Below, in pieces: positions 53,740-58,896 of a stretch of 64,000 nt of DNA. The DNA is from an uncultured Oscillospiraceae bacterium (GTDB taxonomy: Bacteria > Bacillota > Clostridia > Oscillospirales > Oscillospiraceae). The number at the start of each line of letters is the position of its first letter. The stretch's first letter is position 1. The notes under the pieces were generated by a model. The model did no database searches. It was not told where the DNA came from and worked only from the letters and a program-made list of their open reading frames with translations. The position numbers and the translations under genes are program-made. Where the stretch lies: contig CALWOA010000010.1 in the NCBI GenBank assembly GCA_944382965.1, positions 23,425-87,424 of the forward strand, read 5' to 3'.

Positions 53740-55332
53740 CTATTGCGCCGATTCAGACGGACTCTCACCTGCAATGACAGCCTGAGTTGTCAGGAACGCA
53801 CCTGCTATGGAAGCGGCGCTGGAAAGAGCAGCCTTGGATACCCTGAGAGGATCAACGATCCCCGCCTCAATCATATCACAGTATGTTTCTGTGAGCACAT
53901 CCATCCCTACCCCATGCGGCTGCGTTTTGATATGTCCTACGACAGCTCCGGCATCCAGGCCAGCGTTTTCCGCAATCTGACGCGCCGGATACTCTAATGC
54001 GTGCAAGACAATCTGGGCACCTGTTTTCTGATCACCTGAAAGGCTGTTAACGTAGGCTTGTACAGCTGGGATAATGTGAATGTATGCGGTACCGGCACCT
54101 GGAACAATTCCCTCTGCAGCAGCGCCCTTCGCGGCGTGCAGTGCATCCTCTGCGCGCAATTTCTGTTCCCGCACAGCAACCTCTGTTGGCCCACCAACAC
54201 GGATAACAGCAACACCACTCGTCATCTTGGCAAGCCGCTCCATCATTCTGTTCTTATCAAAATCATAATCACATTGGCGGATCCTTGTACGCAGAGCAGA
54301 AATATGCTCCTGGATTGCATCGGGACTCCCACCGCCGCCAAGGATCACTGTGTCATTGCGTTCCACGCGTACCATTTTTGCTGTGCCCAGATGCTCCAGT
54401 GTGATGTCTGCCAAGAGGATACCTGTTTTCTCTGAAACCAACGTGCCCCCTGTCATTACAGCAATGTCTTCCATACGATCTCTGCGGCCATTTCCGTACG
54501 CGGGCGGGTGGACAGCCACTACCTGAAGCGCGCCATGCAGTTTATTGACAACAAGCAGGCCCAATGCTTCTCCGGCAATTTTTTCCGCGATAATGAGAAG
54601 ACCACGCCCGGCTTCCCGTACCTGATTCATGATCGGAACCAGTTCCTGAGCGTTGGTGATTTCTCTATCTGTAACAAGGATGTAGGGTTCCTTCATTTGC
54701 TCGATCATATGCTCTTTGTCGGATAACATATGCTCAGAAATAGCTCCCCTTTCCAGGTGCATACCCTTTGTCACAGACAGTGTGGTCTCACAGGTTTTCC
54801 CTTCCTCAATGGTTATGATGCCCTCAGGCCCCACCTCCTCCATGGCTTGCGCGATTAAGGAGCCAATCTTCTCGTCATTTGCTGAAACAGCAGCGACACG
54901 CTCAATTGTCGGGGTGTCATCCGCTGTAACAGACAGCCGTTTTAACGCGGCAAGCGCCAACTGCGTCGCTCCCTGTATTCCTTTACGCAATGCTATGGGA
55001 TTTGCTCCTGCGGCAAGATTGCGAATGCCCTCATGGATCATTACCTGTGCCAATACCGTCGCGGTTGTTGTACCATCGCCGGAAATTTGGTTTGTTTTTT
55101 CAGAAACCTCCCGGATGATTTGAATGCCCAAATTCTCGACCGGATCATCAGACAGGATGCTTTTGGCAATGCTTGCCCCGTCATTTGTGATAAGCGGCGT
55201 TCCAGAGGGCTGCTGCAGCACGGCATTTCTGCCTTTGGGGCCTAAAGTAGCCTTTACTGCGTCCGCAAGCAGATCAACCCCCCGTAGGAGTCGATACCGT
55301 GCCTCCGCGTTGAATACAATTTCTTTCGGCAT
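53740..55332 (-). CDS. GroEL-type chaperonin paralogue
   Basis: 530 residues. Conserved ATP-site features: [11 protein letters not shown] (30-40), [13 protein letters not shown] (86-98), [21 protein letters not shown] with the catalytic Asp near 398. The apical domain is present. The usual Gly-Gly-Met tail is absent; the end is [13 protein letters not shown]. There is no groES beside it and no CIRCE element upstream, so it is not the housekeeping copy. It diverges from the SDR operon across a 224-bp gap and ends 87 bp from the intron-like repeat. A dedicated folding role for the neighbouring enzymes is inferred. Confidence 0.93.
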
Positions 55333-55556
55333 ATTTCTTTTTCCTCCCGAACTTTACATCGTTTTATAATATAGATAATATTGCTAAAAATGAATACTTA
55401 AAATTGAGTATTTATTATCCATATTTATGGCAGTATCGTTTCCTGTACGAACTGTTATAATGAATTTAACCAAAAAAGGTATGGAAATACGGTGTAATTT
55501 TGCAAATACAAACAAATCTATACCGACGGGTAAATCAAAGACAAAGGGGGATCTTT
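55333..55556. promoter_or_regulatory. Divergent control region of the cargo cluster
   Basis: TATAAT at 55456-55461 points to the SDR operon, but a -35 is not clear. On the minus strand TATATTATAA-type sequence lies 40-50 bp before groEL, whose site is GGGAGGA. A short dyad AATACT-8-AGTATT (55393-55411) lies midway and could be an operator. No CIRCE repeat. Confidence 0.5.
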
Positions 55557-56462
55557 ATGGATAAAGAAACACTGTTCTTTATGTCCGCAGACCAGTTGGA
55601 AGAGGTAAAACCGCTTCCGGAGGTCTTTGATCTGACAGGTAAGGTTGCCGTTGTGACCGGCACGGTTGGTCTGGCTCTGTTTGTGATCAACCGTCTGGCT
55701 GAATGCGGTGCCAAGGTTGTTTTTGGCGGACGTACCGTTGAATGGGGACAAATGGCAGAAGAAGCCCTGAAAGAAATGGGACGCGAGGTAGCTTACAAGC
55801 AGACAGATGTCAGAAAAGTAGAAGACTGTAAGGCGCTGGTAGCCTTTGCGGAGGAGCGGTATGGAACCGTCGATATTGTCGTACCGGTTGCCGCAACCTG
55901 GGGTGCTCGCGCTTTTGTGGATGTGACCGAAGAGGAATGGAATGACATTTTGGATACTGACCTGAAGGGGCAGTATTTCGTATGTCAGGCAGCTGCCCGC
56001 AGTATGATTCGTGGAAAGAAGGGCGGCAAGATCGTGACCATCGCCTCGGTGGCACACAGAGCCGATGATCTGCTCAATGTCGGCATGATGACGCCCTACA
56101 ATGCTGCAAAAGCTGGCGTAGTCGGCATCACAAAGGGAATGGCAAGAGAGCTGAAGCAGTACGGTATCAACGTAAACTGTGTTGCGCCTGGTGGAATGGT
56201 AACCCCCGGCGCGATTGTCAATAATGTGAAAGCATCTGCCCTGTATGGTCCGAAGTGGGATCACGATGTGATGGAAAACGGTGAAATCACACCCGTTGCG
56301 GCAACTCCAGACGAGGTTGCTCTCATGATCCTGACTATGTGTACGGACGTGTCGAACTTCATGTATGGCCAGGTTATCGAAGTGGATGGCGGCAGCCAGT
56401 ACACTTATCAGCACGATCCATGGAGCTACACCATGGAAGGCGGAAAACACGCGAACGCATGA
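55557..56462 (+). CDS. Short-chain dehydrogenase/reductase
   Basis: 301 residues from ATG 55557, after AAAGGGGG. Cofactor loop TGTVGLA (34-40), catalytic Ser164, Tyr181 and Lys185 (YNAAKAG). The usual NNAG motif is replaced by VPVAATWG at 109-116. About 25 extra residues precede the fold (MSADQLEEVKPLPEVFDLTG) and the C-terminus extends to HDPWSYTMEGGKH. It should reduce or oxidise a keto/hydroxy group with NAD(P)(H); substrate unknown. First gene of a four-gene operon. Confidence 0.9.
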   Translation: MDKETLFFMSADQLEEVKPLPEVFDLTGKVAVVTGTVGLALFVINRLAECGAKVVFGGRTVEWGQMAEEALKEMGREVAYKQTDVRKVEDCKALVAFAEERYGTVDIVVPVAATWGARAFVDVTEEEWNDILDTDLKGQYFVCQAAARSMIRGKKGGKIVTIASVAHRADDLLNVGMMTPYNAAKAGVVGITKGMARELKQYGINVNCVAPGGMVTPGAIVNNVKASALYGPKWDHDVMENGEITPVAATPDEVALMILTMCTDVSNFMYGQVIEVDGGSQYTYQHDPWSYTMEGGKHANA

Positions 56463-56514
56463 TTTATCGCCGGTAATCATCGGTGGTTAAAGAATAAAAC
56501 AGGAGGAATAAAAT

Positions 56515-56730
56515 ATGGCTATCAATTCCAAGAGCAAGCTCCGCGAGATTTTGGCGGATCCCCGTGCTGCGGCAATTCTCGATGAGATCATTCCCGGTGT
56601 CGCTGACAACCCTGCGCTGGGCCCCTGCGCCGGTATGCGCATGACAACGCTGCTGAAATTCCCGCAGGTCAGTGTTTCGCCCGAAAAGCAGGCTGAGCTG
56701 ATCGCCAAGCTGGACGCGCTGGACGCATAA
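56515..56730 (+). CDS. 71-residue helical protein, unknown
   Basis: KSKLREILADPRAAAILDEI is followed by PGVADNPALGPCAGMRMTTL and LLKFPQVSVSPEKQAELIAK. It has the feel of a small three-helix domain seen at the ends of some clostridial enzymes, but I cannot name it. The AGGAGGAATAAAAT ribosome site is strong. Lies between the SDR and the trigger-factor-like gene, so it may be a small subunit or scaffold. Confidence 0.75.
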   Translation: MAINSKSKLREILADPRAAAILDEIIPGVADNPALGPCAGMRMTTLLKFPQVSVSPEKQAELIAKLDALDA

Positions 56731-58046: not shown

Positions 58047-58090
58047 CGGCGATTCACGTATAGAAAAATCCCATTTTTACCTCCAGTCTC

Positions 58091-58133
58091 CAAGCGAAAG
58101 GCCGCCCCTGCTTCAGGGGCGGCCTTTCGCTTG
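58091..58133. terminator. Strong bidirectional terminator
   Basis: Perfect 20-bp arms, CAAGCGAAAGGCCGCCCCTG and its complement, around CTT. Separates the cargo operon from convergent luxR. Confidence 0.93.
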
Positions 58134-58149
58134 TATGTACTGTTGTACG

Positions 58150-58896
58150 CTAACGCATCAGGCGTACCATTAGCTCCTGCCGCGAGGAAACCTGCATCTT
58201 TTTGTAAATATTAGCGATATGCTTATTCGTTGTTGTGATCTCTATATTCAAGGTTCTGCTGATGTTGCGCGGCGAAACGCCCTGACACAACAGATTTGCC
58301 ACTTCAATTTCCCGCTTGGTCAGTTCCGTTGTATTCCACGCAATCGAGGATATCCGCCGGTAGTTTGTCTCCTGACAGAAAAAGTTCTTATGCAGATTGT
58401 TGATTGGCGGAATCAGCAAATTGAGGATCCCCAGTTCTTTTTCATCATAGGGCCGGACACTTGTTCGATCCAGCGAAAACACAGTCCGAGGCATTCCGTT
58501 CATATCGGTCAGGACAAATCCCAGAGAATGCCAAATTCCCCGGGGATGGATGTAATCTCTGAGGAACTCTGATTTTGGTTCCATGCGCCAGTCATGGATC
58601 AGAAGCACCGGAACATTGGACGCCTCTTTCCATGGGCGATAGACGGTATAGGGAAAATCCTTGACCTTCGTATAATACTGAAGGAAAATGCTGCTCCAGC
58701 GCTCATCGATATTCCACAGATATTGATCCATTACAGCGCCGTTTTCGTTGAAGAAATAGATCAAAGCTTCATCAAAAGAACACACCGCAAGGAACTGATT
58801 CAGAACTTCAACTGCAAAATCGCGCTTTTCATGAACGTTTCCACAAGCAAGCGTGATATGGTAAATCTGTTCCCATGGCCTATTTTTATCCTGCAT
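58150..58896 (-). CDS. LuxR-family transcription regulator
   Basis: 248 residues. N-terminal GAF-like sensor region (about 1-180) with FGFVLTDMNGMP-type strand signals, then a LuxR helix-turn-helix: LTKREIEVANLLCQGVSPRN followed by ISRTLNIEITTTNKHIANIY. No receiver domain, so it is probably ligand-controlled. Convergent with the cargo operon and the natural candidate for its regulator. Confidence 0.88.
   Translation of the reverse strand: MQDKNRPWEQIYHITLACGNVHEKRDFAVEVLNQFLAVCSFDEALIYFFNENGAVMDQYLWNIDERWSSIFLQYYTKVKDFPYTVYRPWKEASNVPVLLIHDWRMEPKSEFLRDYIHPRGIWHSLGFVLTDMNGMPRTVFSLDRTSVRPYDEKELGILNLLIPPINNLHKNFFCQETNYRRISSIAWNTTELTKREIEVANLLCQGVSPRNISRTLNIEITTTNKHIANIYKKMQVSSRQELMVRLMR

Follow-up and report, generated by a model that had tools for sequence, protein, structure and literature searches.

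Why would a mobile segment of a bacterial genome carry a GroEL paralogue and a lone trigger-factor domain together with two metabolic enzymes, a small protein of predicted helical fold, and a LuxR-type regulator? The question is raised by six genes in a 64,000-nt stretch of DNA (hereafter, the window) from an uncultured Oscillospiraceae bacterium (assembly GCA_944382965.1, contig CALWOA010000010.1, positions 23,425-87,424), to which the coordinates of the locus refer. In general terms, the gene set is a real conserved system whose recurrence goes beyond chance, and its GroEL paralogue is linked to, and co-inherited with, the enzymes of the cluster.

Organization of the locus

A preliminary description, made from the letters of this DNA, had named a GroEL, a trigger-factor-like domain (TFL), a short-chain dehydrogenase/reductase (SDR), an enzyme resembling ketopantoate hydroxymethyltransferase (PanB), a LuxR regulator, and a 71-residue protein (P71). 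All six are present, as found by reading frames and family profiles:

53740-55332, minus strand: GroEL paralogue, cluster-type, 530 residues, no linked groES, no GGM tail, TIGR02348 625.6 bits
55333-55556, no strand: divergent control region of 224 nt between GroEL and SDR, with the dyad AATACT-N8-AGTATT at 55393-55412
55557-56462, plus strand: SDR, 301 residues, YNAAK kept, glycine loop shorter by one residue
56515-56730, plus strand: P71, 71 residues, predicted helical, no Pfam match
56753-57172, plus strand: TFL, a trigger-factor C-terminal domain alone, 139 residues, PF05698 57.5 bits
57186-58046, plus strand: PanB-like TIM-barrel enzyme, 286 residues, without the PanB metal ligands
58091-58133, no strand: perfect 20-nt inverted repeat between the convergent PanB-like and LuxR genes, a possible two-way terminator
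58150-58896, minus strand: LuxR-type regulator, GerE helix-turn-helix at the C-terminal end, N-terminal part without a Pfam match

The genes had been placed under one divergent control region. This holds for GroEL, which runs leftward from the 224-nt region, and for the SDR, P71, TFL, and PanB-like genes, which run rightward from it; it does not hold for LuxR, which lies at the far right end and converges with the PanB-like gene across the inverted repeat. The dyad in the control region has an expected count of 0.00 by shuffling and is overlapped by a 26-nt element that also occurs at the equivalent place of a Bacillota locus (L035). This element was derived from these two loci and, among the loci compared, is found only in L035, one of its two sources. 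The exact dyad appears elsewhere only in one and the same locus listed as L006 and L067 and, with a different core, in L056. Both the dyad and the element were set aside as the LuxR operator, their occurrences being too few.

Conservation of the gene set

The loci retrieved by a scan with the PanB-like protein number 51 and come from acetogens (e.g., Acetobacterium and Moorella), Coriobacteriia, and Clostridia, Lachnospiraceae among them. Acetobacterium dehalogenans and Fusibacter paucivorans are two named strains with PanB-like genes. Partners were counted within 6 kb of the PanB-like gene, the SDR only at an identity of at least 38%; some contigs end close by, the counts are lower bounds, and one P71 match (L067) spans just 29 residues. 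LuxR was found at 43 of the 51 loci, TFL at 28, SDR at 27, GroEL at 22, and P71 at 16. The preliminary description had expected a genuine system to be conserved across species, and rare co-occurrence elsewhere to speak against one; the survey reveals co-occurrence across species and phyla, with all five partners together at only 10/51 loci (one Bacillota, L035, and nine Actinomycetota). Gene order differs between loci, while membership of the set persists, and TFL lies near the PanB-like gene at 11 loci without GroEL.

As controls, we used 12 stretches around matches to ordinary PanB, in seven of which tblastn at 1e-3 re-found PanB. None of the 12 contains TFL, LuxR, or P71; one has a GroEL (49%) ~6.2 kb from PanB, and another an SDR of 26% identity. 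Chance assembly on a mobile element is ruled out by the recurrence in many genomes, the control regions, and the tree of PanB-like proteins. The PanB-like gene is rare: with a limit of E = 1e-45, six of 391 genomes of the class have it, and at an identity of at least 45%, four of 200 genomes of the family do, the genome of the window being counted in both cases; none was found in the three same-genus genomes listed. In [Clostridium] ultunense (L053, 5382-10855), the PanB-like and LuxR genes occur as several partial tandem copies.

A GroEL paralogue inherited with the cluster

The window GroEL passes the TIGR02348 equivalog (625.6 bits vs. a cut-off of 582.1) and keeps the ATP-site motifs LGPKGRN and GDGTTT; the C-terminal GGM tail is absent from this protein. 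The preliminary description had reasoned that, if this were the only groEL of the genome, it would simply be the housekeeping copy. The genome has three GroELs: the cluster copy; a copy on contig C18, 50% identical, linked to groES and ending in GGGMY; and a copy on contig C35, 29% identical. The separate groES-groEL pair on C18 rules out the housekeeping identity. Along the same lines, 12 of 17 genomes reached via the loci carry a cluster GroEL, and a second GroEL was found in 10 of these; the five genomes without it showed one GroEL each. In G200 and G204, both metagenome-assembled genomes, the cluster copy is the only GroEL found. Neither the window nor loci L034-L084, a number of them short, gave a GroES match at 1e-3. 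groES lies beside 13 of the 14 non-cluster GroELs included in the tree described next.

Of 37 GroELs placed in a tree, the 23 that belong to clusters, in both Bacillota and Actinomycetota, split from the 14 others with a branch support of 97/98. The tree is midpoint-rooted, and the result is therefore a separation, which becomes a clade only if the root falls among the other 14. Rows with segments identical to included ones (cluster copies seen twice, L092, and L098) and rows that were too short (L081, L111, and L112) were left out. Two sub-clades of cluster GroELs hold the same loci as two clades of PanB-like proteins, L051 through one of its two PanB-like genes. Similarly, GroEL and PanB-like distances correlate over 22 loci (r = 0.81), with none of 2000 shuffles as high; for L051, the PanB-like gene entered was the one in the matching clade, a choice in favour of this result, and host relatedness contributes, but the clades cross phyla. 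Mapped onto the PanB-like tree, GroEL presence requires 8 changes vs. ~20 for shuffled labels (five of 62 reading frames, shorter than 220 residues, were left out of this tree, and two of four intended ordinary PanBs were included). Run on 391 genomes of the class, a cluster-GroEL profile scores the window copy, which is one of its own rows, at 778 bits and nothing else above 721; it does not set the lineage cleanly apart.

The third GroEL of the genome (L113, 5812-13969, contig C35) lies among one-carbon genes, with names assigned partly by eye: a RamA-like protein, a corrinoid protein, a pterin-binding methyltransferase, and two URO-D-like proteins.

The PanB-like enzyme

The PanB-like enzyme scores 144.7 bits against the Pfam family Pantoate_transf and 85.9 bits against the NCBIfam equivalog TIGR00222, whose cut-off of 207.55 it does not reach. 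Its AlphaFold2 model (pLDDT 89.5) finds PanB as the best Foldseek matches (1m3u, E = 4.9e-17, ~24% identity; 1oy0, rmsd 2.4); the PanB fold is present, and ICL/PEP-mutase folds are the next structural neighbours.

We compared 37 PanB-like proteins with 11 ordinary PanBs, using three alignment modes that agree and numbering residues on the 1m3u row. Asp45, Asp84, and Glu114, the Class II metal ligands of PanB, are all kept in 11/11 ordinary PanBs. In the PanB-like proteins, the Asp45 position is changed in 36/37 and kept in one, that of Asp84 is changed in 37/37, and that of Glu114 is Met in all 37. The active-site Lys112 position is also changed in 37/37, mostly to Leu, and the equivalents of His136 and Glu181 are kept in every one. 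A local phmmer alignment opens with Asp53 of the window protein opposite Asp45, a pairing that fuller alignments do not support. Because the metal ligands are lost, the protein is, on its sequence, not a ketopantoate hydroxymethyltransferase, and that name is unfit. No pantoate ligase (PanC, PF02569) was found in the genome, which is ~91% complete. An ordinary PanB is ruled out by the failed equivalog cut-off, the lost metal site, and the lack of a detectable pantoate ligase.

SDR, P71 and TFL

The SDR of the window has the glycine loop GTVGLAL, one residue shorter than the GGATGLG of most. The short loop occurs in 13 of 31 aligned SDRs, all 13 at loci with P71, and the remaining 18 have a loop of full length. 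The association is one-way, since L051, L075, and L084 combine P71 with an SDR of the usual motif. In one genome, a 426-residue protein (L180, 430-1707) has P71 matches at both ends of a single SDR, and this fusion argues that P71 is a partner of the SDR. The protein itself is predicted to be helical (pLDDT 81) and was rejected as a member of a known family, having neither a Pfam match nor a credible PDB match (best E = 0.15). Weak P71-like matches also occur in frames that look, by eye, like glycosidases (L182, L184, L185, and L187), and P71 may be a wider accessory domain.

TFL passes PF05698 (57.5 bits, cut-off 22.7) and fails the tig equivalog (48.7 bits vs. 180.2); at 139 residues, it is too short for the ribosome-binding and peptidyl-prolyl isomerase (PPIase) domains.

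One-carbon genes and substrate clues

Eight of the 51 loci (L051, L052, L059, L076, L078, L080, L081, and L082) have a gene for Fhs, FolD, or FTCD close to the cluster, six have a formate channel there, and L073 has just a gene for a 5-formyl-tetrahydrofolate cyclo-ligase-like protein. Folate gene names were assigned to sequence clusters by eye, with a Pfam check on four genes, three from L076 and one from L081, and the neighbourhood of L052 was read separately. At L189, a GcvT-like folate enzyme precedes SDR-P71-PanB, accompanied by a URO-D-type gene and by a BaiCD-like flavoenzyme that scores below the family cut-off. The window's own genome carries Fhs, as well as a set of corrinoid methyltransferase genes that includes a GroEL of its own. 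A protein of ~410-450 residues stands before the GcvT-like gene at three loci with a PanB-like gene (L189, 6175-7410; L063, 11887-13164; L081, 2412-3758); the L189 copy has no Pfam match.

Transporters vary by locus, with MFS and GPH members recognized by family search and TRAP and ABC members by eye. Since they differ between loci, no substrate is named; steroid-, lignin-, and sugar-derived compounds were considered, and none is assigned.

Proposed function and alternatives

Our reading, to which we give an even chance, is that of a catabolic module, carried horizontally and induced by its substrate, that brings its own chaperones: a one-carbon unit is transferred to tetrahydrofolate (THF), and GroEL and TFL fold the barrel. 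LuxR would switch on the divergent groEL together with the SDR-P71-TFL-PanB-like genes. Partnered by P71, the SDR would oxidize a hydroxyl group on a natural product to the ketone, and the PanB-like barrel would pass an activated one-carbon group of the hydroxymethyl type to THF, giving methylene-THF, i.e., the PanB reaction reversed. FolD, FTCD, and Fhs would take methylene-THF to formate and ATP; in acetogens, it would enter the Wood-Ljungdahl pathway. GroEL and the ribosome-free trigger-factor domain would fold chiefly the PanB-like barrel. The substrate class, the direction of the reaction, and the use of THF by the PanB-like enzyme are what we infer from the locus, as are the roles of P71 as an SDR subunit and of LuxR as a substrate sensor. 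The barrel is the likely client because TIM barrels (c.1 fold, 28 positives) are prominent among the obligate GroE substrates of E. coli, according to the excerpted part of a published account (PMC10068320).

The preliminary description had pictured a catabolic or detoxifying aldol/lyase step plus a redox step, whose enzymes need private chaperones. A private chaperone is the best reading of the GroEL tree, the PanB-like tree, and the distance correlation, whereas the dependence of the enzymes on it is something we only infer; the aldol/lyase step is conjectural and may be refined to the delivery of a one-carbon unit to THF. Several facts weigh on the other side. None of the tracked folate genes is found in the stretch examined at 42/51 loci, and five of the eight loci with Fhs, FolD, or FTCD belong to Coriobacteriia and possibly reflect one ancestral linkage. 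No transporter is common to most loci, one MFS family recurring in four. The loss of the metal site means that the reaction may differ from that of PanB, and the SDR of the window, with its altered cofactor loop, may not be a normal dehydrogenase. The main fact against a strict need for GroEL is that acetogen PanB-like proteins 70-76% identical to that of the window occur without a cluster GroEL, with one groEL per genome in 5/5 genomes tested; thus, the PanB-like enzyme does not always need the cluster GroEL.

The same catabolic module could work without THF, the PanB-like protein being a metal-free retro-aldolase or lyase and the folate neighbours handling formaldehyde or formate from other steps. 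This we consider unlikely, though deserving of serious attention: two metal ligands lost in 37/37 proteins and the third in 36/37, together with the lysine lost in all, mean that the chemistry has changed, most loci lack tracked folate genes nearby, and ICL/PEP-mutase folds follow PanB among the structural neighbours. Against it, folate genes recur by the cluster in separate lineages (L051, L052, L059, and Coriobacteriia), and a GcvT-like enzyme joins it in L189. A synthetic direction, in which an acceptor is hydroxymethylated at the expense of formate or methylene-THF to give a product that the SDR then reduces, is quite improbable. PanB itself runs in this direction, and Fhs, FolD, and the formate channel could supply the one-carbon unit, but a cluster that is rare, island-borne here, and linked to LuxR looks more like catabolism, as does the company of the BaiCD-like flavoenzyme, the GcvT-like protein, and the URO-D-type gene at L189.

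GroEL and TFL might also serve the SDR (or SDR-P71), or a general stress role, and not the PanB-like barrel; we regard this as possible and, on the whole, rather doubtful. Cluster GroEL occurs at 15 of the 16 loci with P71 (including the 29-residue match of L067), and the P71-linked SDRs have the unusual glycine loop; yet three loci (L040, L042, and L043) have TFL near the PanB-like gene with no SDR of at least 38% identity and no P71 found, and GroEL tracks the PanB-like distances. That the gene is the pantothenate-pathway PanB of the genome, among unrelated neighbours, is exceedingly improbable: the Pantoate_transf score and the fact that no other PanB was seen in the genome are outweighed by the missing pantoate ligase, the low equivalog score, the lost metal site, and the conservation of the neighbours.

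Returning to THF-dependent catabolism, we tentatively put forward, with more doubt than confidence, a fuller version: in gut anaerobes and acetogens, a new metal-free, THF-dependent family of the PanB fold would remove one-carbon units of the hydroxymethyl type from natural products, assisted by an SDR with the new small subunit P71; gut lineages would keep their own GroES-less chaperonin and ribosome-free trigger factor, the enzyme and chaperonin having evolved as a pair and crossed phyla together.

The genomic island

The six genes had been placed inside a mobile segment, and a tRNA-Leu repeat and a serine recombinase frame support this. The elements concerned are:

51777-51860, plus strand: tRNA-Leu; its bases 51839-51858 recur at the island's right end
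53505-53665, plus strand: probable remnant of a group II intron, flanking the six genes on the left
58958-59104, plus strand: probable remnant of a group II intron, flanking the six genes on the right, 84% to its left counterpart
60928-62655, plus strand: serine recombinase frame, broken twice by in-frame TAG codons, at 61654 and 62065
62543-62562, plus strand: exact 20-nt copy of the tRNA-Leu 3' end, bounding the island on the right

The island measures 10.7 kb between the two exact copies of the tRNA-Leu 3' end, the right one adjoined by the recombinase frame. An empty site was sought in three relatives, where no tRNA lies within ~1.5 kb on either side of the response-regulator homologue. 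Inside the island, direct repeats at 53505 and 58958, in the same orientation, enclose exactly the six genes, and the genome gave no third match to them. Plasmid-borne group II introns annotated with ltrA match parts of these repeats, which, on this resemblance, are probably remnants of such introns; Rfam reports no group II intron in the flank region at E up to 0.1. A 41-nt inverted repeat without a spacer (60223-60304, 83% complementary) also lies in the island, and a weak Rfam match there to a plant microRNA falls below its cut-off.

Significance and comparison with known systems

Our searches of an open-licence library found no paper that describes the cluster, the PanB-like family, P71, or the pairing of GroEL with TFL. 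Sets related to this one are found in distant bacteria, most of them gut dwellers, and an enzyme family with and without a private GroEL is a natural experiment on client-specific chaperonins, through which the features that render a TIM barrel dependent on a chaperonin can be tested directly. The cluster may mark an undescribed route of one-carbon harvesting in Coriobacteriia, Clostridia, and acetogens, and expression of such genes in E. coli may require that the native GroEL and TFL be supplied.

A private chaperonin beside catabolic genes is of an already-known kind. In excerpts of two reports, the gbu enzymes of a gut Clostridium need a native GroES/GroEL-like pair at 37 °C, and E. coli chaperone plasmids did not replace the native chaperonin for the gbu/bbu enzymes (PMC10653785, PMC8364193). 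The gbu/bbu system, which converts gamma-butyrobetaine to trimethylamine in gut Clostridia, resembles the present cluster in being a set of anaerobic gut catabolic genes with a GroEL-like gene nearby in three species (PMC10653785, PMC8364193). According to the same excerpts, it differs in its enzymes (i.e., CoA transferases and a flavoenzyme), in that the chaperonin tested is encoded with groES and away from gbu in E. timonensis, and in that no trigger-factor domain or P71 is named there.

Among the components, the PanB-like enzyme shares with PanB (1m3u, 1oy0) the TIM-barrel fold and the His136 and Glu181 positions, at ~24% identity to 1m3u, and differs in the replacement of Asp45, Asp84, Glu114, and Lys112 and in having no pantothenate context. 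TFL shares with trigger factor the C-terminal chaperone domain, without room for the ribosome-binding and PPIase domains.

GroEL-like proteins of the MmoG type belong to soluble methane monooxygenase clusters, i.e., a catabolic operon with its own chaperonin paralogue. This is the likeness to the present locus, whereas the enzyme served there is an aerobic di-iron enzyme; we know of no link between MmoG systems and folate enzymes or TFL. Closest at hand is the gene set on contig C35 of the same genome, likewise a private GroEL among THF-linked one-carbon genes (named partly by eye), although its GroEL is only 29% identical and falls outside the cluster group, and its chemistry is that of corrinoids.

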